From positions 558,001-622,000 of the forward strand of contig NZ_CP051204.2 in NCBI RefSeq assembly GCF_012516375.2: 64,000 bases of DNA. Direction: 5' to 3'. Under the pieces are notes generated by a model. It made no database searches. It saw only the letters and a list, made by a program, of their open reading frames with translations, and was not told the DNA's origin. The DNA comes from Chitinophaga oryzae (GTDB taxonomy: Bacteria > Bacteroidota > Bacteroidia > Chitinophagales > Chitinophagaceae). Positions 6,271-63,592 of this stretch are shown piece by piece; position 1 is the first letter of the stretch, and each line of letters opens with the position of its first letter. Made by a program: the position numbers and the translations under genes.

Positions 6271-6318
6271 TTTAAGTCACTGTTTAAACCGCTGTTTAAA
6301 CTACTATTTAAACCACGA
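6271..6318. repeat. four 12-bp direct repeats upstream of the DUF937-like gene
   Basis: Four contiguous 12-mers begin at 6271, 6283, 6295 and 6307 with the pattern TTTAAACCNCTG. The inner TTTAAA is palindromic. The block ends 30 bases before the start codon at 6349, a position fit for a regulatory site. Confidence 0.6.
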
Positions 6319-51240: not shown

Positions 51241-52164
51241 GTGAAAGAAATTCAGGAAATACTGGCATTAGCCATCCCGCAGCCCGCCATGAGCGACCAG
51301 CTACAGCTGGCGGAGCAGGACAGCGTGTCCGTCCCGGATTGCCTGGACTTTACATTGCAGCGCTTCATCTACGATAAGCCGTTGCCGGTGGAAGACATAG
51401 CCATGGTCGTGTACCAACCGGCTAAAAGAGGGCAGTCCGCCGCAATAGAACTGCGCTATTGCGTGGCCGGCAGCAAATACTGTAAAAATCCCGCCTGCAC
51501 AGACCAGTTATGTGCAGAGGGCAATAAGGAAGCCTGTAAGGACAAGGTCCCTTCTGTAGACCTTATCACCGTCAGGTTCCAGCCAGCGTTTATTCAGTCG
51601 CTTCAGAAAAATACCACCTCGTTCTCCCTTTTCGAGAACCAGACCCGCAAACCTTTCGTGAAAACCATCCAGCCCTGCACCAAATCCAAATCGGTGCTGG
51701 AAACCATGGTGCATCACAACTATGAAGGAATGCTGAAGAACATCTTCCTGCAAAGCCGCGCCCTGGACTTACTGCTGTACAGTTCAGACCAGTTCATGCA
51801 GAACGATCCCGACGAACGTTATGGCTGCCGCTTCCTTACACACCTGGAAGACCGGGAGAAAATTGAAAAAGCAAGAAGTATCTTACTGGAACAACTGGAT
51901 TCCCCTATCACCATCCGCGACCTGGCCCGTAAAGTAGCCATGAATGAATGTTACCTGAAAAAAGGCTTTAAAGCCATGTATGGTACCACCATCTACGACT
52001 ATTTCCAGAAAGAAAGGATGGAGAAGGCCAAAGGCCTGTTGTACGAAAAAGGCATGTCTGTGTCCGAAGTGGCTATGCTGATGGGTTATTCCTGCATTTC
52101 CCACTTCTCCACCGCCTTTAAAAAACATACAGGGTTAAAACCTTGCGAGTTATTACTTCGTTGA
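51241..52164 (+). CDS. AraC family transcriptional regulator with a five-cysteine cluster
   Basis: A 307-aa regulator. The C-terminal AraC domain (about 205-307) has two HTH motifs: TIRDLARKVAMNECYLKKGFK and SVSEVAMLMGYSCISHFSTAFKKHTG in part. The N-terminal domain has cysteines at 74, 81, 86, 91 and 99 (YCVAGSKYC, NPACTDQLC), a possible metal or redox site. The start is GTG at 51241, since no ATG fits and the -7 element is 25 bases before it. PchR-like Bacteroidota regulators share this form. Target genes are unknown. Confidence 0.87.
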   Translation: MKEIQEILALAIPQPAMSDQLQLAEQDSVSVPDCLDFTLQRFIYDKPLPVEDIAMVVYQPAKRGQSAAIELRYCVAGSKYCKNPACTDQLCAEGNKEACKDKVPSVDLITVRFQPAFIQSLQKNTTSFSLFENQTRKPFVKTIQPCTKSKSVLETMVHHNYEGMLKNIFLQSRALDLLLYSSDQFMQNDPDERYGCRFLTHLEDREKIEKARSILLEQLDSPITIRDLARKVAMNECYLKKGFKAMYGTTIYDYFQKERMEKAKGLLYEKGMSVSEVAMLMGYSCISHFSTAFKKHTGLKPCELLLR

Positions 52165-52519: not shown

Positions 52520-55051
52520 TTAGCAGTGGGCAATAGCTTCTGCATACTCCATCTCATAAGACAACCCATACGTGCTTTTATATTCTCTCAGGAATGACGC
52601 ATACAGATGGCGGGCCGCTGAATGCTGCCGCAATGCCACCAGCGCCCTGCACTTGTGCCGTACCGCTTCTTCGTGGAGGGAATCGGCATACAGTATACAG
52701 TCACATACGTCCAGCATAAAAGCCGGCGCGGCATCGGGGTTTTCATCTATAAAATGGCTCAACAGCTCAATATTATGCGAGGCAATGTCCGCCTTGAATT
52801 TATCCAGCCACGGGTATTCGGTTTCCTGCAGGAAAGGGCCCCGCTTCAGCAGTTCCACCAACGCAGCAGTATTGCGGGGACCATGCTGTAACAACTGGTA
52901 GTAACGGTCCAGGTCCGTTTGTTCCGACGGGCCTTCAAACCGGAACAACCAGCGTTCATTATCCTTCATCAGCGTATAGGCGCCGGTTTTATCGAGTATG
53001 CTCTTTAGTTTGACCAGGTTTACGGAACGGTTGTTTTTCGCATCTTTTACAGACCTCCCCGGCCACAGCACTTCATGGATCTTCTCCGACGAAATACCAT
53101 TTCTGCCCGGCACGGAATGCAGGTACAGCAGCAGGAACAGCTCCTTCAGCAAAGGACTGAAGGCGCGGGTAATATCATTCCCCTCCCTGTCGGTAACAGT
53201 AAAAAGACCAAACAGCTGAACCCCGGGACAAGCCGTGGTTACACCGGCCATAGGGGCGGCAGCGGGAACGATGACGGTTGCAGGCTCCGGGAGGTTAACC
53301 GGCGCCGGTGCCACTGACGGCTGTTTCCGGCGGTTCAGCGCCGCTATGCCCAGCGCCAGTAAAAACAGCGCGGTCACCAGGCCGATGGCGATGAGGATAC
53401 GAACAACATACAATGGCGCGGGCTTGTCTGCAGGCGCGGGCGCTCCCAGCCCATGAGGCGAAAACTGAAGGGTATGGATACGTACCTGCGTGGTGTTGTT
53501 TTTCAGTGAAAACAAGGTTACCACCGTCAGTTCATCGTTTTCGGGCGTATAAAAAAGCCGGGCTGCCGACCGGATGTCATAAAAGTCATAACGGATGGCA
53601 GTGGCCATGGCCGTATACACTGGTTCTTTTAAAGATCCTCTGATCAGCTGAAGCGAAGAGTTCATCCGGTCATTGGCGAAAGTCAGCGCATAATATTCCT
53701 GCCGTTTTGTATCCAGTACCATATTACCGGCGAAGGCAAATTGTTCTTCGGGTTCCTTCAGCCGGTATATCGTGCGGAAGGTACGGTGTTTCACATCCAG
53801 CAATACCAGGTCATAGAGGTTGTGCGGATTCAGCAGCTGGTCGCCGGTAGTGCTGCCATAACCGCCCAGTATATACGCTGTGTCTCCCGCCTGGTTGTTG
53901 CCCAGCGCCGCCAGGTACCGCGGCGTAAAAGCATCTCCGCTCATGGCGACCTGCTCCCACCGGCGGCGACCTGGCGCATAACAATGTACTTCATTCTTGT
54001 ACCTGAAATCACCATAACCACCTATCATATAAATGCTGCTGTCATAGCAGGAGAAGAAAAGGTTGGAATGCCAGTAGCCGGTCACGTTCTGAGGGTTTAA
54101 TGTTCCGTTCCAGGTGTGCTGCGCGGTATCATACACCGCCACCTGCTGACTGTCGGGCATCAACTGATATAATTGCCGGTCCGCCGGATTAAAAACGGCG
54201 TGTAGCCCTGCCGGTAATGGCTGCGGCGAAGCCTGCGCCTGCGCGGCTCTCTGATGTGTGTAACAATAATAACGGTAAAGGCTGTCGTTACTGTTAATGT
54301 AGATAGTGCCGGTAGCTGCATCCATACTTACGCTGGCGTTGCCTTTTACGATAAAGGAATCGGCCTGTCGCCAATGGGTGAAGGCGGGGCGCATCCATAC
54401 CGGGTTTTTGACTTGCGCGGTTTGTCCTGTTATGAGGTCTTTGTCGGTAGTGCCCTGGGCCTGGTCCAGCGGCCAGTGGTGTTGCAGCGTGCCGCCGGCA
54501 AACAGCCGCACGTCTTTCAGCCGCATCGGCGGAAGGTCGAACGTGCGGAACGTTTTGCGGTAATTGGCGCCGAAACAGATGCGGAGCGCGCTGCCGGAAA
54601 CAATGGGGCTGCGGACTGCGCCTATCCGCCGGCCGTTGACGGTAAGGGATAACGTATGTGCTTCATTGTTAGCATCCAGCCGGATGGTGTTCCACTGATG
54701 AAATAAACTGTCAGACGGAATAGAGAAAGTGATACCGGAAAACGCATTGCCGGTGACCACATAAAATGCTTTTGTGCGAACATTATATATCAGGTCGATA
54801 TTCTGGCGTTTTTCATCGGTGATCCTGAACACATAGCCAAAATACGACCGGAAAAACGGTTGGAACGATAGGTCGAAAGACAGGCTGTAGCTGCCTTTCA
54901 CCCGGATAGGTTTCTCCGGCGCAAGGTCAAGTGAGGTACGGTCTTCCTGCGCAATATTTTTACTGGCAAACAATAATCCATACCCCTCCTGTGCCCGGCA
55001 AACCATCACAAGTGATACGAATAGGAGCAAAAAGACTGTATATCTGTACAT
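52520..55051 (-). CDS. transmembrane SARP-type regulator with LamG/Kelch-like sensor
   Basis: An 843-aa protein. Residues 1-20 are a signal peptide (FLLLFVSLVMVCRAQ). A concanavalin/LamG-like domain lies at about 45-220 (SYSLSFDLSFQPFFRSYFGY, NTIRLDANNEAHTLSLTVNG). Kelch-like repeats follow at 325-480 (YMIGGYGDFRYKNEVHCYAP, AYILGGYG). One transmembrane helix is at 547-572. The C-terminal part is cytoplasmic: an OmpR/SARP-type winged helix at about 610-705 (LLKELFLLLYLHS, ISSEKIHEVLWPG, NNRSVNLVKLKSILDK) and a BTAD-like helical domain at 712-840 (ARHLYASFLREYKSTYGLS). It lacks kinase or receiver domains, so it looks like a one-component sensor-regulator. It is divergent from susC, its likely target. 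ATG 55051 gives the signal peptide. Confidence 0.82.
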   Translation of the reverse strand: MYRYTVFLLLFVSLVMVCRAQEGYGLLFASKNIAQEDRTSLDLAPEKPIRVKGSYSLSFDLSFQPFFRSYFGYVFRITDEKRQNIDLIYNVRTKAFYVVTGNAFSGITFSIPSDSLFHQWNTIRLDANNEAHTLSLTVNGRRIGAVRSPIVSGSALRICFGANYRKTFRTFDLPPMRLKDVRLFAGGTLQHHWPLDQAQGTTDKDLITGQTAQVKNPVWMRPAFTHWRQADSFIVKGNASVSMDAATGTIYINSNDSLYRYYCYTHQRAAQAQASPQPLPAGLHAVFNPADRQLYQLMPDSQQVAVYDTAQHTWNGTLNPQNVTGYWHSNLFFSCYDSSIYMIGGYGDFRYKNEVHCYAPGRRRWEQVAMSGDAFTPRYLAALGNNQAGDTAYILGGYGSTTGDQLLNPHNLYDLVLLDVKHRTFRTIYRLKEPEEQFAFAGNMVLDTKRQEYYALTFANDRMNSSLQLIRGSLKEPVYTAMATAIRYDFYDIRSAARLFYTPENDELTVVTLFSLKNNTTQVRIHTLQFSPHGLGAPAPADKPAPLYVVRILIAIGLVTALFLLALGIAALNRRKQPSVAPAPVNLPEPATVIVPAAAPMAGVTTACPGVQLFGLFTVTDREGNDITRAFSPLLKELFLLLYLHSVPGRNGISSEKIHEVLWPGRSVKDAKNNRSVNLVKLKSILDKTGAYTLMKDNERWLFRFEGPSEQTDLDRYYQLLQHGPRNTAALVELLKRGPFLQETEYPWLDKFKADIASHNIELLSHFIDENPDAAPAFMLDVCDCILYADSLHEEAVRHKCRALVALRQHSAARHLYASFLREYKSTYGLSYEMEYAEAIAHC

Positions 55052-55204: not shown

Positions 55205-55336
55205 TTAATTTAATAGATAAAACATGCATTTCATAATTTAATCAGGGCTTTTTTTTGACTTAATCGCCGCTGTTAATCCCCAATTAATCCGCCTGTTAAC
55301 CTGCTGCTCCTTACTTGCAGGGTGATAATTAACTCC
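55205..55336 (+). promoter_or_regulatory. candidate SARP-type heptad direct repeats upstream of susC
   Basis: TTAATC or TTAAC heptads at 55238 (TTAATCA), 55260 (TTAATCG), 55273 and 55284 (both TTAATCC), 55296 (TTAACCT) and 55329 (TTAACTC), plus a weaker TTAATTT at 55205. Starts are 33, 22, 13, 11, 12 and 33 bases apart, close to whole helical turns. SARP regulators bind direct heptads spaced 11 or 22 bp. The region is AT-rich, so chance cannot be excluded. The rest of the 311-base gap holds a possible -7 element TAACTTTG at 55176-55183. Confidence 0.4.
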
Positions 55337-55362: not shown

Positions 55363-58300
55363 ATGAAAAGATGGTTATACATGCTATTGCTGTTGTCTTA
55401 TGCCTACGGCAGTTCGGCACAATCCCTTCCGCTGAAGGGGCGGGTGCTGGATGAAGGTGGGCAACCGCTGCCGGGCGTAACGGTGAAAGTGCTGGGCACC
55501 TCGTCCGGTACCAGCACCGACCCCAAAGGCGATTTTTCACTGAACACCCCGGCCGGCGCCCGGCTGGTTTTCAGCTTCGTCGGCTATCGTCCGGACACCG
55601 TGCCGGTCGGTAATCAAACCTTTATCCAGGTGTCTCTGAAAACCAATGTGTCTTCCCTCAGTGATGTGGTGGTCGTAGGGTATGGCACCCAGAAAAAAGT
55701 AAACCTTACCGGCGCGGTGACCCAGGTGTCTGCCAAAGCGCTGGAGAACCGCCCGCTGCCCAACCTGAGCCAGGGGCTGCAGGGGGTGGTGCCCAACCTC
55801 AACCTCGTGCCCGGCGACGGTAAGCCTACACAGGCTCCTGCTTATAACGTGCGTGGTATTACTTCCATCGGACAGGGCGGCAACGCGCTCGTGCTCATCG
55901 ATGGCGTGGAGGGCGATCCCAGCATGCTCAATCCTGCGGACGTTACCAGCGTCACCGTATTGAAAGACGCGGCCTCCGCTGCCATTTACGGCGCCCGCGG
56001 CGCCTTCGGCGTGGTATTGTTCACTACCAAAACACCGGTGAAAGACAAACTGAGCGTTACCTACTCCACCAACTACTCCCTGAAAAAGCCCACGACCGTG
56101 CCGGACGTGGTCAGCGACGGCTATGAATACGCCAAAAACTTCAACGAAGCCTGGACCGCCTGGAACGACTATTCACAGGTGCCACAGAATATCAATAAAA
56201 CACAACCTTTCTCACAGGCCTACCTGGCTGCGCTGAAGGAACGTGCAGAAAACCCCGGCCTGCCGAAAACAATCGTCAACGGCGCAGGTAACTATGAATA
56301 TTACGGCAACACCGACTGGTACGACCTGTTATATAAGGACCATACCAGCGCTACGGAACATAACCTCTCCGTTTCCGGCAGCAGCGGTAAAGCCAGCTAT
56401 TACATCACCGGCAGGTATTATGGGCAGGAAGGCTTGTTCCGCTTTAATTCCGACGACTATAAGATGTACAACCTGCGGGCGAAGGGCGCCATCCAGCTGT
56501 TCCCTTTCCTGAATGTGTACAACAGCACCGAGTTCTCCAGCAGGGATTATCACAACCCGCTCAATGTGGGCGAAGGCGGCGGTATCTGGCGTAACCTTGC
56601 GGACGAAGGGCACCCCTCCTCCATGCTCTTTAACCCCGATGGCACCCTCACTTACTCCGCCGCCTATACGGTGGGTGATTTCTTCTATGGTAAAAATGGT
56701 ATTGACCTGAACAAACAGGTGTTCAGAAACACTACCGGGTTCTCAGCAGATATATATAAGGACAAACTACGACTGAAAGGTGACTTCACCGTACAAAACA
56801 CGGCCGATAATCAAAAACGTTTGCGCGTGCCCGTTCCCTACAGCAACGCGCCGGGGGCCATCGCTTACGTAGGTCTCGGTTATAATGATCTCATGATGAG
56901 TAATTATAATACCCTTTATCTGGCCTCCAATATCTATACAGAATATGAAACACGCTTTGGTGATGCCCATTACTTCAAAGCCATGGCTGGTTTCAACTAT
57001 GAGCAGTCTACCTACAAAGGATTCTCTACCACCCGTAACGGCCTTGTGTACAGCGACGCTAAAGACATGAACCTCGCACTGGGCACCAATATCAACACTG
57101 CCGGCGGATATGAACGCTGGGCTATCATGGGTGAATTCTTCCGTTTGAACTACGCTTATAAAGACCGTTACCTGCTGGAAGTTAACGGCCGTTACGACGG
57201 ATCGTCAAAGTTCCCTTCCAGCCAGCGCTACGCTTTCTTCCCTTCCGTATCTGCCGGCTGGCGTCTCTCCAAAGAAGCTTTCTGGCATCTTCCGGAAACA
57301 GCAATTTCCGATCTGAAGATCAGGGGCTCCTACGGTTCTCTCGGTAATGGTAATATCAAATCCTACGCCTTCCAGGAGAAGCTGGAGATCAAACAATCCG
57401 GCAGGGTGATCAACGGCGTGCGTCCGCAGCAGACTACCCAACCGGTAGTACTGCCCGACGGCCTCACCTGGGAAACGTCTACCACCCGCAACCTTGGCCT
57501 GGATGTGGCGGCGCTGAGCAATCGTCTCACTTTTACCGGTGACGTATACACGCGGGTAACAAAAAATATGTTCACCGTTGGCCAGACACTGCCGGCCGTT
57601 TTCGGGACAGAGGTGCCCAAAGGCAACTATGCTGATCTGAAAACCAACGGATGGGAAATTGCACTCGGCTGGCGCGATCAGTTCAACGTAGCCTCCAAAC
57701 CGCTGCATTACAGCGTTAACGCCACTTTGGCCAACTATAGCGCAGTGATCACCAAATACAATAATACCAACGATAAGCTGACCGACTGGTATACCGGTAA
57801 AAAAGTAGGTGAAATATGGGGGTATGTCAATGATGGTTACTGGACACAGGAAAACTATAAGGCTGCTGCCAAAGCGCAGGCGCTCTTCAAGGCTTCCAAC
57901 TCCGGCCAGTGGCTGCCCGGCGACATCCGGTTCAAAGACCTCAACGGCGACGGTATCATTAATAACGGCGCCAACACCCTGAGCAATCACGGCGATCTGA
58001 CCATCATCGGCGATTCTCTGCCGCACTACACCTACGGCATCAACCTCAGCGCCGACTGGAACAATATCTTCTTCAGCGTTTTCTTCCAGGGCGTCGGCAA
58101 ACAGGACTGGTGGCCCGGAGCAGAATCTGATGTTTTCTGGGGACAGTACAACAGGCCGTACAACTATATGCCTAAATCGCAGATCGGCAACATCTGGTCT
58201 GAAGACAACCAGGACGCTTACTTCCCGCGCTATCGTGGTTATGTGGCGCAGAACAGCGCCGGCGAGCTTAAAGCACAACAATCCAAATACCTCCAGAACG

Positions 58301-58563
58301 CAGCCTACATCCGCCTGAAAAATATACAGATCGGCTACAACCTGCCCAAGGCGCTGATTTCAAGAGCCAGGCTCAATGCTGCCAGGGTGTTCCTTTCTGC
58401 TGAAAACCTCTGGTCCTGGTCGCCGATGTACCGCATCACCCGTGATCTTGACGTGGAAAGCATCGGCCGCTCCGATACCGTTACAGATTCCGGTAACTCC
58501 GGCAACGGGAACAACTACCCCATCCTGAAAAGTTTCACGCTGGGCCTCAGTGTTACGCTTTGA
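55363..58563 (+). CDS. susC: SusC/RagA family TonB-linked outer-membrane receptor
   Basis: A 1066-aa outer-membrane importer for glycan fragments. The signal peptide ends near SSAQS. A carboxypeptidase-regulatory-like domain (about 24-100: LKGRVLDEGGQPLPGVTVKVL) precedes the TonB box/plug SDVVVVGYGTQKKVNLTGAV and VRGITSIGQGGNALVLIDG, then a 22-strand barrel. It is typical of SusC. With the SusD protein 31 bases downstream it forms the uptake complex. A phosphoesterase and a GH92 enzyme follow, suggesting a mannose-containing glycan. Confidence 0.95.
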   Translation: MKRWLYMLLLLSYAYGSSAQSLPLKGRVLDEGGQPLPGVTVKVLGTSSGTSTDPKGDFSLNTPAGARLVFSFVGYRPDTVPVGNQTFIQVSLKTNVSSLSDVVVVGYGTQKKVNLTGAVTQVSAKALENRPLPNLSQGLQGVVPNLNLVPGDGKPTQAPAYNVRGITSIGQGGNALVLIDGVEGDPSMLNPADVTSVTVLKDAASAAIYGARGAFGVVLFTTKTPVKDKLSVTYSTNYSLKKPTTVPDVVSDGYEYAKNFNEAWTAWNDYSQVPQNINKTQPFSQAYLAALKERAENPGLPKTIVNGAGNYEYYGNTDWYDLLYKDHTSATEHNLSVSGSSGKASYYITGRYYGQEGLFRFNSDDYKMYNLRAKGAIQLFPFLNVYNSTEFSSRDYHNPLNVGEGGGIWRNLADEGHPSSMLFNPDGTLTYSAAYTVGDFFYGKNGIDLNKQVFRNTTGFSADIYKDKLRLKGDFTVQNTADNQKRLRVPVPYSNAPGAIAYVGLGYNDLMMSNYNTLYLASNIYTEYETRFGDAHYFKAMAGFNYEQSTYKGFSTTRNGLVYSDAKDMNLALGTNINTAGGYERWAIMGEFFRLNYAYKDRYLLEVNGRYDGSSKFPSSQRYAFFPSVSAGWRLSKEAFWHLPETAISDLKIRGSYGSLGNGNIKSYAFQEKLEIKQSGRVINGVRPQQTTQPVVLPDGLTWETSTTRNLGLDVAALSNRLTFTGDVYTRVTKNMFTVGQTLPAVFGTEVPKGNYADLKTNGWEIALGWRDQFNVASKPLHYSVNATLANYSAVITKYNNTNDKLTDWYTGKKVGEIWGYVNDGYWTQENYKAAAKAQALFKASNSGQWLPGDIRFKDLNGDGIINNGANTLSNHGDLTIIGDSLPHYTYGINLSADWNNIFFSVFFQGVGKQDWWPGAESDVFWGQYNRPYNYMPKSQIGNIWSEDNQDAYFPRYRGYVAQNSAGELKAQQSKYLQNAAYIRLKNIQIGYNLPKALISRARLNAARVFLSAENLWSWSPMYRITRDLDVESIGRSDTVTDSGNSGNGNNYPILKSFTLGLSVTL

Positions 58564-58594: not shown

Positions 58595-60406
58595 ATGCAA
58601 CAATATAAGAACGCACTTTCCAAAAGGGTAACCTGGCTGGGGCTGGTGCTGACGGCATGGGTGCTCACCGGAAGTTGCTCCAAAAACCTGGACCAGGTAC
58701 CGGTGGATACCGCCACCAAAGACGCCATCTTCGGTAGCGAAGACGGAATGAAACTCTATTCCAATTCTTTCTATGACGTACTGCCGGGTATCAACGATAT
58801 CTATAAGGCAGATAATATGGCAGACTACAGCGCTGTTAACGCCGTGCCCGACTTCCTGCGCCAGGGCGCTTATACCTCCCGGACCGCCACCGGCTGGGAC
58901 TGGAAGAACCTGCGTAACATCAACTATTTCATCGCCAACTGCAACAATCCCAAAATACCGCAGGCCGTCAGGAACAACTATCTCGGACTGGCCCGTTTCT
59001 TCCGCGCCTGGTTTTATTTCGATAAAGTGAAACGGTTTGGTAATGTGCCCTGGATCGGTAAACCATTTGAGGTAAACGACGAGAACCTGTATGCAGGCCG
59101 CGATCCGCGCACCCTCATCATGGACTCCGTAGTGGCCGACCTTGATTTTGCTGCTGCCAACATCGCGCTGGCCAACGACCCTACCTGTAGCCAGATCACT
59201 AAAAACGTAGTCCTCGGGTTTAAGTCAAGGGTATGCCTGTTTGAAGGAACTTTCCGGAGGTACCAGACATCCTACAACCTGATGGCGACCGCACCTGAAT
59301 GGCTGAAAGCTGCGGCCACCGCTGCAAAGGCCGTGATGGACAGCAAAGCTTTCTCGCTGAACCAGGGCGGCGGCACTACCCAGTCCTACCGCCAGCTGTT
59401 TATCAGCAACGCGCCGGTAGCGGCAGAAGTAATGCTCGCCAATATCGCCAGCGCCAGCCTGGGGGTATTCAACGATGCCAACTGGTGGTACACCAGCTCT
59501 ACCTATGGCGCACGCCTGAGCTTCACGCGTACGTTTATCAATACCTACCTGAATATCGACGGCACGCCCTTCACCAATATCAACCGCTATGACACGCTGC
59601 CTTTCCTTAAAGAAACACAGGGCCGCGATAAACGCCTGCAGCAGACGATCCGTATGAGCGGGTATACCCGCACCAGCAACGGCGCTACCATTGCGGCGCC
59701 TCCGGTATTTTCGTATGTCTATACAGGCTATATGCCGATCAAATGGAGCCTGGATGATACCTTCTTTGATAACGGCGCCAATAATACCAACGCGATCAGC
59801 CTGATGCGCTACGCTGAAATCCTGCTCAACTATGCCGAGGCGCAGGCCGAACTGGGCCTGCTGTCGGATGACGACTGGAGCAAAACAGTAGGCGCTTTGC
59901 GTGCACGCGCGGGTATTACCAGCGGAACAACAGCCAGACCGGTTACCGTAGACGCCTATATGAAAGCCAATTACTTCAATGACATCACAGACCCGTCGCT
60001 GATGGAAATCAGGAGAGAAAGAGGGATTGAGCTGGTGCTCGAAGGCTTCCGCTTCTATGATCTGGTAAGATGGAAAAAGGGTGATCTGCTGGCCAAATCA
60101 TGGAACGGTATGTACGTGCCGGCGCTGGATGTGCCCATGGACCTCAACGGTGACGGGGTGAATGACGTATACTTCTACAAAACGCCGCCGGCCAATCAGC
60201 AGAAGGGGATTACCTATATCAACGTGTCGGAGATAGCCAACAACGTAACGAACCCACAGCAGCTGAGTAATGGCAATTCCGGTGAAATCCACTGGCTGGA
60301 TAATGTACAGAAGGAATGGAAAGATTACAAGTATCTTTATCCTGTTCCTTATACAGACCTTCAGTTGAATCCCAGGCTGGGACAGAATCCTGGTTGGGAG
60401 GAATAG
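58595..60406 (+). CDS. susD: SusD/RagB family nutrient-binding lipoprotein
   Basis: A 603-aa surface lipoprotein that caps SusC. The lipobox is LTGSC (residue 28). SusD features are FRAWFYFDKVKRFGNVPWI, the TPR-like helices (YAEILLNYAEAQAELG) and the C-terminal IRRERGIELVLEGFRFYDLVRWKKG with the final LYPVPYTDLQLNPRLGQNPGW in part. It starts 31 bases after susC. The bound glycan cannot be read from sequence. Confidence 0.95.
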   Translation: MQQYKNALSKRVTWLGLVLTAWVLTGSCSKNLDQVPVDTATKDAIFGSEDGMKLYSNSFYDVLPGINDIYKADNMADYSAVNAVPDFLRQGAYTSRTATGWDWKNLRNINYFIANCNNPKIPQAVRNNYLGLARFFRAWFYFDKVKRFGNVPWIGKPFEVNDENLYAGRDPRTLIMDSVVADLDFAAANIALANDPTCSQITKNVVLGFKSRVCLFEGTFRRYQTSYNLMATAPEWLKAAATAAKAVMDSKAFSLNQGGGTTQSYRQLFISNAPVAAEVMLANIASASLGVFNDANWWYTSSTYGARLSFTRTFINTYLNIDGTPFTNINRYDTLPFLKETQGRDKRLQQTIRMSGYTRTSNGATIAAPPVFSYVYTGYMPIKWSLDDTFFDNGANNTNAISLMRYAEILLNYAEAQAELGLLSDDDWSKTVGALRARAGITSGTTARPVTVDAYMKANYFNDITDPSLMEIRRERGIELVLEGFRFYDLVRWKKGDLLAKSWNGMYVPALDVPMDLNGDGVNDVYFYKTPPANQQKGITYINVSEIANNVTNPQQLSNGNSGEIHWLDNVQKEWKDYKYLYPVPYTDLQLNPRLGQNPGWEE

Positions 60407-60429
60407 TTGATCATTTAAAAAAGTTTCTC

Positions 60430-61353
60430 ATGAAGAAAGTTGTTTTCTCATTTTTGGCGACGTTGTTGTGGCTGGCGGAAACGGTAACGGCTCAACGGAT
60501 AAACGTGGCCACCTACAATATGCGCAACGACAATAACAAAGAAGATTCATTGCGCGGAGACGGCTGGGGACAAAGGTTTCCAGTAATTGCCTCCCTGATC
60601 AGGTTTCATGACTTTGATATCTTCGGCACGCAGGAATGTTTGTACCATCAGTTGGTGAACGTCAAAGACAGCCTGCCTGGATACGATTTTATTGGCATTG
60701 GTCGTGATGATGGAAAACGTGCCGGTGAACATGCTGCGATCTTCTATAAAACAGGTCGTTTCCAGTTGCTGGGTCATGGCGATTTCTGGCTGTCTGCCGT
60801 TACCGACAGACCCAATAAAGGCTGGGATGCGGTACTGCCGCGGATTTGTTCCTGGGGGCAGTTTAAGGATAAAAAGACAGGCTTTGTGTTTTATTTCTTT
60901 AACCTGCATATGGACCATGTGGGCGTGGTAGCACGCGCCGAAAGCGCGAAGCTGGTGCTGGCCAAGGTGAAGGAAATTGCGGGCAATAAGCCAGCGTTGC
61001 TGACAGGCGATTTTAACGTGGACCAGCATAGCGAGTCTTATGGCGTTATCCACAACTCCGGTGTGATGAAGGATGCCTACGAGGTGACGGCAGTACGCTA
61101 CGCGCTGAACGGAACATTCAATTCATTTAAAAGCGACAGCAAGACAGACAGCCGTATCGATCATATCTTCCTGACAAAACAGTTTAAGGTCAGCCGGTAT
61201 GGCATACTCACGGACACTTATCGCAGTAAGCGTCCGGAAGAAGTTGCGGCAGATGCTGCTAATTTTCCCAAAGAGGTGAAGCTCTCGAAATACATTGCCA
61301 GAGAGCCATCAGACCATTTTCCGGTGATGGCCGTGCTGGAGTACGGAAAATAA
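60430..61353 (+). CDS. secreted endonuclease/exonuclease/phosphatase family protein
   Basis: A 307-aa secreted EEP-fold hydrolase with a signal peptide (to about TVTAQ). The active-site residues are present: the catalytic Glu in TQECLYHQ, NLHMDHVG, the TGDFNVDQ Asp/Asn pair, SRIDHIF and the final PSDHFPVMAV. EEP enzymes cleave phosphodiesters or phosphomonoesters. In a locus with GH92 mannosidase, removal of a phosphate from a mannan or glycan is plausible but unproven. The ATG at 60430 gives the signal peptide; upstream in-frame residues overlap susD. Confidence 0.9.
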   Translation: MKKVVFSFLATLLWLAETVTAQRINVATYNMRNDNNKEDSLRGDGWGQRFPVIASLIRFHDFDIFGTQECLYHQLVNVKDSLPGYDFIGIGRDDGKRAGEHAAIFYKTGRFQLLGHGDFWLSAVTDRPNKGWDAVLPRICSWGQFKDKKTGFVFYFFNLHMDHVGVVARAESAKLVLAKVKEIAGNKPALLTGDFNVDQHSESYGVIHNSGVMKDAYEVTAVRYALNGTFNSFKSDSKTDSRIDHIFLTKQFKVSRYGILTDTYRSKRPEEVAADAANFPKEVKLSKYIAREPSDHFPVMAVLEYGK

Positions 61354-61373: not shown

Positions 61374-61402
61374 GGGCCCGCCTACACGGCGGGCCCTGTT
61401 TG
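61374..61402 (+). terminator. hairpin between the phosphoesterase and GH92 genes
   Basis: GGGCCCGCC (61374-61382) pairs perfectly with GGCGGGCCC (61388-61396), followed by TGTTTGTGT. The T-tract is poor, so it may only attenuate transcription into the GH92 gene. Confidence 0.6.
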
Positions 61403-61417
61403 TGTAACCAGCCGCTT

Positions 61418-63592
61418 ATGCAAAAGCACTTGTTTTTTCAGTTGCTGGTAGCCCTGTTTTTTTTCGGTGGCTGCAGGCCGGCGCCGGAAGATTATATGGA
61501 CCCTGCTATCGGCAACATCGCCACGTTATTGAAACCTACCCGCCCGGTTATCCAGTTGCCCAACGAAATGGTCCGCGTATATCCGTTGAGGAGAGACGGC
61601 GCCGATGATCAGATAACCGGTTTCCCGCTACAGGTGGCAGCGCACAACGATGGAGCGCTGTTTATCATGAAGCCTTCTTCCAGGCCGCTTTCTCCTGCCG
61701 AATGGCAGCGTTGCTGTACTTATGACCCTGTACAGGAGGTGATACACCCCTGGTATTACAGCACGATGCTGATAGAAGACAGCATCCGCGTGGAGTTTGC
61801 GCCCGGAAGCAAAACAGGTGTGTATCGTTTTTCTTTTCCGGAAAATGCCGACCGTAAATTATTATTCACTGCCCCATTAAATTTTTCGGGAAATACGTTT
61901 ACTGCCAGGACATTTTTTCATGGTGATGTTCCGGTGTACGTATATGGCAGATTTAATACAGCCATAACGGCAGGGCTCGTGTCAGATACTTTATCCTGTG
62001 TGCGGTTCCCGCACCGGAAAGAACGGGTTGTTGTTTTACAGTATGCTATTTCCTATGTCAGTACAACACAGGCAAAGCAGCATTTTCAAAAGGAAATGGA
62101 AGGGCGTGACATGGAAACAGTCATTGCAGAAGGTCGGGGCCGCTGGCATGCGGTGGCTACCCAGGTGCAGGTGGAAGGCGGCACTGTGGCGCAACGCCGG
62201 TCATTTTATACTGCATTGTACCGTTGTCATGAACGAATGGTCAATATCACCGAAGATGGTGTTTATTACAGCGGCTACAATAAGAAAGTCAACCTGGCCC
62301 GCCGGTCTTTTTATGTAGATGACGCCACATGGGACACTTATCAGGCGTTGCATCCGCTGCGCATGATCCTGCATCCGGAGCAGGAAGAGGATATGCTCGA
62401 CGCTTATGTGACGATGTATGAACAAAGCGGATGGATGCCCACTTTTCCGCGGTTGTATGGAGACCATCCCTGCATGAATGGTTTTCACAGCACTGTTATT
62501 TTCCTGGATGCCTGGCGGAAGGGATTGAAAATACCGCGGATGGCGGCTGCTTACGAAGGCATGAGAAAAAATGCGCTCAGCGCAACGATGCTGCCCTGGC
62601 GGAACGGACCCGCCGGCGCGCTGGACAGCTTCTACCAGGCAAAGGGCTATTACCCGGCATTGCGGCCGGGCGATACCGAAACGGTGGCCGGAGTGCATCC
62701 GTTCGAAAAGCGGCAGGCGGTGGCAGTTACCCTGGGGCATAGTTATGACGACTGGGCGCTGTCGCAGCTGGCGGCGGACCTGCACCGGTATGACGATCAG
62801 CGGCTGTTCGCCGCACGCGCAGAAAATTTCCGGCGGCTGTGGCATGACAGCGTTCGTTTTTTTCTGCCGAAAGACAATGCCGGCAGGTGGATCATGATTG
62901 ACCCTGCATGGGATGGCGGCCCTGGCGGCCGTGATTATTACGATGAGAACAATGGCTGGACTTATCTCTGGGCGGTACAGCATAATATCCCGGCGCTGGT
63001 CCGGCTGATGGGAGGCGAAAAAGCTTTTGAACGGCGGCTGGATGAGCTTTTCCATACGGTGCCGGCTATGCCGCGCTACGATTTCTGGCATCGTTTCCCG
63101 GATGCTACCGGCCTGGTTGGACAGTTTTCGATGGGCAATGAGCCGGGGTTTCACATCCCCTATCTGTACAACTATGTAGGAGCTGCATGGAAAACGCAAC
63201 GGCAGGTGCGCATGCTGCTGGACCTGTGGTTTAAGGATAATGTGTTTGGTATTCCCGGAGATGAGGACGGCGGAGGGATGAGTGCGTTTGTGGTGTTTTC
63301 TTCATTGGGATTTTATCCTGTCACGCCGGGCGTGCCTGTTTATGCTATCGGGAGTCCGGTGTTCCGTAAGGCTACGATTCGGTTACCTCAAGGTAAGCGG
63401 TTTATATTGATTGCGCGGCATTGTTCGGAGGTGAATCAGTATATCCGGCGGGCGTGGCTGAACGGGGAGATATTGCATTCGCCTTTTTTCACGCATCAGC
63501 AGTTGATGGAAGGAGGCACGCTGGAGCTGGAGATGGGACCTTTCCCTGAGAGGCGCTGGGGTGCGAGTATTCATGCGCCGCTTTGCAGGTGA
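61418..63592 (+). CDS. GH92 family alpha-mannosidase, divergent subgroup, lipoprotein
   Basis: A 724-aa surface lipoprotein (lipobox FGGC, residue 19) of glycoside hydrolase family 92, exo-alpha-mannosidases acting on N-glycans or mannans with a calcium-assisted inverting mechanism. Family motifs are WDTYQALHPLRMI, MGNEPGFHIPYLYNYVGAAW (general acid in NEP) and GIPGDEDGGGMSAFVVFSSLG. The N-terminus reads AIGNIATLLKPTRP, not the common GTGGHGHTFPG-type form. The usual second His after NEP is also altered (GFH). The start at 61418 gives MQKHLFFQLLVALFFFGGC; six upstream residues are possible. Confidence 0.9.
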   Translation: MQKHLFFQLLVALFFFGGCRPAPEDYMDPAIGNIATLLKPTRPVIQLPNEMVRVYPLRRDGADDQITGFPLQVAAHNDGALFIMKPSSRPLSPAEWQRCCTYDPVQEVIHPWYYSTMLIEDSIRVEFAPGSKTGVYRFSFPENADRKLLFTAPLNFSGNTFTARTFFHGDVPVYVYGRFNTAITAGLVSDTLSCVRFPHRKERVVVLQYAISYVSTTQAKQHFQKEMEGRDMETVIAEGRGRWHAVATQVQVEGGTVAQRRSFYTALYRCHERMVNITEDGVYYSGYNKKVNLARRSFYVDDATWDTYQALHPLRMILHPEQEEDMLDAYVTMYEQSGWMPTFPRLYGDHPCMNGFHSTVIFLDAWRKGLKIPRMAAAYEGMRKNALSATMLPWRNGPAGALDSFYQAKGYYPALRPGDTETVAGVHPFEKRQAVAVTLGHSYDDWALSQLAADLHRYDDQRLFAARAENFRRLWHDSVRFFLPKDNAGRWIMIDPAWDGGPGGRDYYDENNGWTYLWAVQHNIPALVRLMGGEKAFERRLDELFHTVPAMPRYDFWHRFPDATGLVGQFSMGNEPGFHIPYLYNYVGAAWKTQRQVRMLLDLWFKDNVFGIPGDEDGGGMSAFVVFSSLGFYPVTPGVPVYAIGSPVFRKATIRLPQGKRFILIARHCSEVNQYIRRAWLNGEILHSPFFTHQQLMEGGTLELEMGPFPERRWGASIHAPLCR

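Follow-up and report, generated by a model that had tools for sequence, protein, structure and literature searches.

Glycan sensing in Bacteroidota is known to rely on hybrid two-component systems, on SusR and on extracytoplasmic function (ECF) systems; the one-piece glycan regulators of the phylum, SusR among them, combine an outside sensor, a membrane helix and a cytoplasmic DNA-binding domain, and have susC and susD as neighbours. The membrane-bound winged-helix regulators ToxR, CadC and TcpP are built in the reverse order to the protein discussed here, with the DNA-binding domain first and with neither a BTAD nor a glycan-type sensor, and EmbR of Mycobacterium tuberculosis, a cytosolic protein with an FHA domain, has no membrane part at all. 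Here, we analyse a stretch of 64,000 nucleotides of the soil bacterium Chitinophaga oryzae (NCBI RefSeq assembly GCF_012516375.2, contig NZ_CP051204.2, positions 558,001 to 622,000 of the forward strand), hereafter the window, whose coordinates are used throughout, and in particular the gene at 52520..55051 on the minus strand which, as judged from sequence, homologues and structure model, encodes a transmembrane regulator of 843 amino acids of the Streptomyces antibiotic regulatory protein (SARP) type. This protein shares the general plan of the SusR-type regulators but uses another sensor and another DNA-binding family (a comparison made from general knowledge rather than by sequence). It is probable, and we hold this with good confidence, that it is a membrane-spanning, single-pass one-component SARP activator of alpha-mannoside utilization. 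This conclusion is based on predicted architecture and fold, gene linkage, operator-like repeats, promoter geometry, co-occurrence of sites and regulator, and a putative regulon, from which we infer the ligand, DNA binding, activation and the contact with sigma.

The sequence-only reading of the window had proposed a one-piece protein with sensor, helix and SARP-BTAD unit, and this is borne out by the structure models. All parts lie on the minus strand. A hydrophobic N-terminal segment or signal peptide (residues 1-21, 54989..55051), seen in the sequence, in the hydropathy of homologues and as a model helix at 2-19, is followed by a LamG/ConA-like beta-sandwich, putatively glycan-binding (residues 22-222, 54386..54988; PF13385 in 5 of the 56 members scanned, and model strands), and by a Kelch beta-propeller (residues 223-533, 53453..54385). 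A transmembrane helix (residues 547-572, 53336..53413), supported by structure model and alignment, leads into a disordered linker (residues 573-606, 53234..53335; predicted local distance difference test score, pLDDT, below 50 and poor conservation). Structure model and comparison then predict a winged-helix DNA-binding domain at residues 607-706 (52934..53233), whose recognition helix (668-686) has a mean conservation of 0.80 in the homologue alignment, and a BTAD-like helical domain (residues 707-843, 52523..52933). In alignment A1, made of the query and 64 of 120 listed homologues (a second one, A2, holds the query and 55), the internal membrane helix is present in 58 of 65 rows, and in 56 of those 58 the charge is more positive after the helix, as expected for a positive inside. 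The N-terminus is hydrophobic in 53 of the 65 rows (22 with a stricter hydropathy window) and 10 rows have an additional hydrophobic segment. When predicted structures were compared, AfsR and EmbR were the sole strong matches of the C-terminal model, the match of winged helix plus BTAD fold spanning about 230 residues. The alignment of the whole model with VIA-align returned Kelch rows, so that the LamG part was barely tested by it; the likeness of the propeller to NanM/YjhT and KLHDC proteins is one of fold only and implies no common function.

The regulator is transcribed divergently from susC (55363..58563, plus strand; Pfam CarboxypepD_reg/Plug/barrel), the first gene of the operon and its predicted target. 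Between the two genes lies a probable operator made of the heptamers GTTAATC, ATTAATC and GTTAACC (55272..55301, plus strand), which start at 55272, 55283 and 55295 and are thus 11 and 12 bp apart. The 45 columns from 55272 to 55316 are gap-free in 12 of 12 close orthologues, and the DNA farther upstream is not. In the same orthologue alignment a degenerate fourth repeat, TTAATCG (55260..55266, plus strand), precedes the array, followed in loci L007 and L031 by a gap of one base. Three RTTAR motifs at lags of 11 or 12 bp were found within 350 bp before 25 of the 41 susC genes near a regulator, a set which includes the 12 close orthologues and does not amount to 41 independent cases. With other pairs of lags, 8 of the same 41 genes scored for 12/13 and 0 or 1 for the remaining pairs from 8/9 to 21/22; over 200 rounds of dinucleotide shuffling of the upstream regions the number was 0.02 on average and never above 1. 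Some susC starts were guessed in these tests, and susC is in pieces in L008 and L045. Across 81 loci, 122 arrays were counted on both strands, of which 119 are intergenic; once merged, 68 are found no more than 1 kb from the regulator and 27 beyond that, a density of 0.434 versus 0.020 per kb, and 60 of the 81 loci have a strict array within 1 kb. An earlier form of the test, at a lag of exactly 11, was too strict and missed this window, and was replaced by lags of 11/12. Elsewhere in the window, at 6272-6311, there is a run of TTTAAAC-type repeats with a 12-bp spacing, a different type of unit.

A promoter-like -7 box, TTACTTGC (55311..55318, plus strand), stands at a fixed offset from the last repeat, with a gap of 9 bp from the end of the last heptamer. 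In an alignment anchored on the last repeat, comprising 62 of 86 arrays after removal of near-identical ones, offsets 6-15 show little preference (at most 0.22 bit) and a conserved T[TA][AT]NTTGCA-like box occupies offsets 16-24, the TT at 20-21 being strongest (1.26 and 1.45 bit). By its sequence, this box resembles the sigma-A -7 box TAnnTTTG given for Flavobacterium psychrophilum in an extract of PMC9723704. The pattern T-N3-TTG matched 41 times at the expected offset, 16 times one base further and 19 times at +12, that is, about one repeat away, and 0-4 times at each of the remaining offsets from -8 to +11. Sites with the box have a spacing of 12 in the last pair of repeats in 36 cases and of 11 in 7, each remaining spacing from 7 to 19 giving 0 or 1. 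A TTG at the -33 spacing (spacer 17-21) occurs in 2 of 26 non-redundant sites (26 of the 41 were used). As controls for repeats and box we used reversed and offset-shifted patterns, shuffled sequences, and genomes without the regulator.

The combined site, three repeats plus box, was sought in 198 genomes that were also searched for the regulator, 11 regulator rows that are small pieces being dropped from the count. Of the genomes of the genus, 58 have the regulator and 40 of these have the site, as against 1 of the 21 that lack the regulator (Fisher P 2e-7, a value that overstates independence, the genomes being related). There are 76 such sites in the genus versus 2 for the reversed pattern, and 55 of the 76 are within 10 kb of the regulator, 43 within 1 kb. 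Fifteen of the 21 distant sites were examined, 14 from regulator-positive genomes and one from a negative genome. At the 14, the next gene encodes a glycoside hydrolase family 92 (GH92) protein in 3 cases and a GH99-like protein in 9, so 12 of the 14 in all; the lone site from the negative genome precedes unrelated genes. The other two of the 14 precede one family of 411-412 amino acids (L149:268-1503 and L150:3512-4750), directly after a full operator and -7 box, and the member scanned has no Pfam match; it is a candidate mannan-related protein. The genome of C. oryzae has 126 SusD matches and one combined site, which is before this operon. The constant distance between repeats and -7 box makes putative targets recognizable from the pattern by itself, as the unlinked GH92 and GH99-like genes illustrate, so that the regulon and the likely class of sugar could be read from sequence.

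Behind the predicted operator and susC follow, all on the plus strand, susD (58595..60406; Pfam SusD_RagB), a gene for an endonuclease/exonuclease/phosphatase (EEP)-family protein (60427..61353; Pfam), present in the closest orthologous loci, 11 of the 80, and a gene for a GH92 alpha-mannosidase family protein (61400..63592; Pfam, 463 bits), one of four GH92 in the 8.36-Mb genome. The EEP-family product, kept with susC and susD in those 11 loci, might, as a guess, strip a phosphate or phosphodiester from the glycan. Locus comparisons covered the best 80 of 281 related places, with neighbours taken as open reading frames of at least 100 amino acids picked by a greedy script rather than by a gene finder. 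The link of homologues to transport loci holds: susC is immediately adjacent to the regulator in 42 of the 80 loci (one has it on both sides), and among genes four or more positions away it makes up 20 of 485. Its start always faces the regulator, no adjacent susC having its 3' end towards it in the 80 loci; L029 has a converging susD-susC pair. The divergent arrangement proposed at the outset is found in 25 of 77 loci as the immediately upstream gene but is just one of several layouts, the immediately downstream gene being a co-directional susC in 18 of 78. A mannan as the substrate had also been guessed, and this gains support from GH92 in 38 and GH99-like in 39 of the 80 loci (either in 59), as well as from the distant operator-bearing genes of both kinds.

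From these data, the following mechanism can be proposed. Outside the inner membrane, the LamG-like/Kelch sensor would meet an oligosaccharide from alpha-mannan or another alpha-mannose-rich glycan, a ligand class suggested by the enzymes encoded beside the regulator and behind its sites. Inside, the SARP unit of winged helix and BTAD, on its flexible tether, would bind three or four RTTAR repeats one helical turn (11-12 bp) apart, the last heptamer ending 9 bp before a -7 box without a -33 box, and the bound protomers, by analogy with AfsR, could serve as a docking surface for sigma region 4. The outcome would be that susC, susD, the EEP-family gene and the GH92 gene are switched on, along with further genes, GH92 and GH99-like ones among them, in relatives.

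In Streptomyces, according to an extract of PMC10936776, SARP targets carry repeats at intervals of 11 or 22 bp, 8 bp separate the last repeat from the -10 box, and sigma region 4 is carried by AfsR in place of its usual -35 contact. The layout upstream of susC, the putative target, is that of a SARP promoter, with 9 bp from the last repeat to the -7 box. The likeness extends to the winged helix plus BTAD fold, predicted here, to direct repeats about 11 bp apart and to a weak or absent -35 box, here the -33 box. Unlike in AfsR and the other SARPs, the SARP domain is C-terminal, preceded by a glycan-type sensor and a membrane helix, and not N-terminal as is usual, if not strictly defining, for SARPs; moreover, the host belongs to the Bacteroidota, the loci concern sugars and not antibiotic clusters, the spacing is 11 or 12 bp, and Pfam profiles fail. 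The protein has the predicted fold and the promoter layout of a SARP, but its SARP unit forms the C-terminal end of a membrane sensor and escapes the Pfam profiles. If this is true, the DNA-binding modules used for glycan sensing in Bacteroidota would gain a further kind, whose promoter code can be read, and the system would test whether sigma adaptation, in which the -33/-35 contact is replaced, operates from the membrane. The literature matches listed contain no description of a Kelch/LamG-SARP membrane regulator.

Several observations weigh against this interpretation. Pfam and NCBIfam returned nothing useful for the C-terminal half of the protein, and the Trans_reg_C and BTAD profiles do not capture the C-terminal domain: PF00486 was absent among the 25 of 29 families displayed, PF03704 matched 2 of 56 members (best E 0.074), and the regulator of this locus matched neither in the Pfam scan. 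A hidden Markov model of the SARP part searched against PDB found no SARP and one unrelated match (E 1.8), and Pfam BTAD gave eight weak places across the genome, one of them above the cut-off with its neighbours and none at the regulator gene. At this distance, the failure of a profile does not prove that the protein is no SARP. As to the sites, arrays are readable on the reverse strand as well in 15 of 41 cases, because TTAA is its own complement, and they occur before 14 of the 33 other susC genes of the same loci; however, 11 of these 14 are encoded on the same strand as the regulator, 1.2-5.2 kb downstream of it (two being its next gene but past the 1-kb cut), and may be targets themselves, so the 33 are no independent control. 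A strict array within 1 kb is missing from 21 of the 81 loci and the exact combined site from 18 of the 58 regulator-positive genomes, degenerate repeats being present in some of these. The 119 genomes outside the genus are at background, with 8 sites versus 8 reversed-control matches, one of the 8 sites being in a regulator-positive genome. By our own reading, the 14 distant sites reduce to some eight loci that are independent of one another, GH92 or GH99-like genes being present in seven; the Pfam GH99 matches of the GH99-like proteins of L035 and L140 are below the cut-off, and the remaining ones were joined by phmmer similarity only, three more distant ones that were scanned (L143, L147 and L152) having no Pfam GH99 match.

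The same regulator and operator could work by regulated proteolysis: binding of the sugar would trigger a cut close to the membrane, after which the SARP domain, now released, would diffuse to its promoters. The long disordered linker behind the helix would suit such release, and chromosomal sites far from the regulator gene would be easier for a free domain to reach, but distant targets and the 34-residue linker fit a tethered domain equally well, and positive evidence for cleavage is lacking, a protease gene or cleavage motif not having been looked for. Membrane-tethered winged-helix activators such as ToxR and TcpP are said to act from the membrane, which counts against proteolysis, and we regard release as unlikely. 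That a membrane-fixed SARP controls the whole alpha-mannan regulon, unlinked genes included, without proteolytic release, that three or four protomers on helically phased repeats replace the -33 box and dock sigma region 4, and that the Streptomyces layout is common to another phylum, whose housekeeping promoter differs, and is there wired directly to an extracytoplasmic glycan sensor, is a tentative proposal, to which we would give slightly less than an even chance.

The direction of control is not readable from sequence, and a repressor relieved by sugar would be compatible with that; however, the -33 box is missing and the repeats, which precede the -7 box, occupy the position where it would be; a promoter as weak as this is expected to depend on an activator, which makes repression improbable. 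With the arrays found at other susC genes of the same loci it could be imagined that they belong to another regulator sharing these loci, the LamG-Kelch-SARP protein doing something else. Against this, the arrays are concentrated within 1 kb of the regulator gene, their occurrence among genomes of the genus parallels that of the gene, and their arrangement agrees with what has been reported for SARPs, and we find a separate regulator quite improbable. Lastly, the predominance of Kelch in Pfam matches and in several source names could point to a secreted enzyme akin to galactose oxidase or to a Kelch protein with a structural role, in line with the names of some records, but one conserved membrane helix and a conserved C-terminal domain with a predicted SARP fold leave this hardly credible.

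The regulator has 519 homologues at E <= 1e-3, the best 120 of which have 36-91% identity over 61-100% of the protein; L002, from C. eiseniae, is a relative at 89%. The sequence-only reading had warned that the Kelch half invites misannotation, and the trap is real: 'galactose oxidase' and 'kelch repeat-containing protein' are among the source names, hiding the regulatory role of several listed homologues. Others are called 'AfsR/SARP family' or 'BTAD domain-containing', so that the SARP domain has not gone wholly unnoticed by annotators. The distribution is patchy. Of 395 genomes from across the phylum, 15 had a match at E <= 1e-3 to SARP profile A3, built from this locus and 37 of the 80 loci, and in four the match was weak; the regulator or pieces of it occur in 58 of 79 genomes of the genus, with one copy in this genome, and in 3 of 119 genomes searched outside it, all of the same family. 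No homologue was found in viral contigs. In a protein search for SARP domains behind other sensors, in which candidate lengths were restricted, 119 of the 120 best matches (of 147) carry Pfam Kelch, the exception being a 477-residue fragment.

Among neighbouring genes, an AraC-type regulator (Pfam) at 51241-52164, past the SARP gene on its 3' side, is a possible second input. In nine loci (L016, L021, L023, L026, L027, L040, L048, L053 and L061) a related protein is encoded after the regulator and behind an array; the two longer ones scanned, in L016 and L023, have GDSL-like and TPR domains, L021 has a weak GDSL match, and a relative of this protein occurs in 18 of the 80 loci. Split-frame homologues of the regulator in G465:C7, G469:C1, G426:C1 and L103 are decaying genes or assembly errors. 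In L102 (4258-5073), a SARP-like protein of 271 amino acids without a membrane helix is encoded on the same strand directly after a full-length relative. Tandem pairs at L104:1825-6319 and L105:1863-6357 join an 853-residue relative to a 683-residue protein with LamG and without a Kelch match, and from these pairs sensors seem to have been swapped on the SARP unit.
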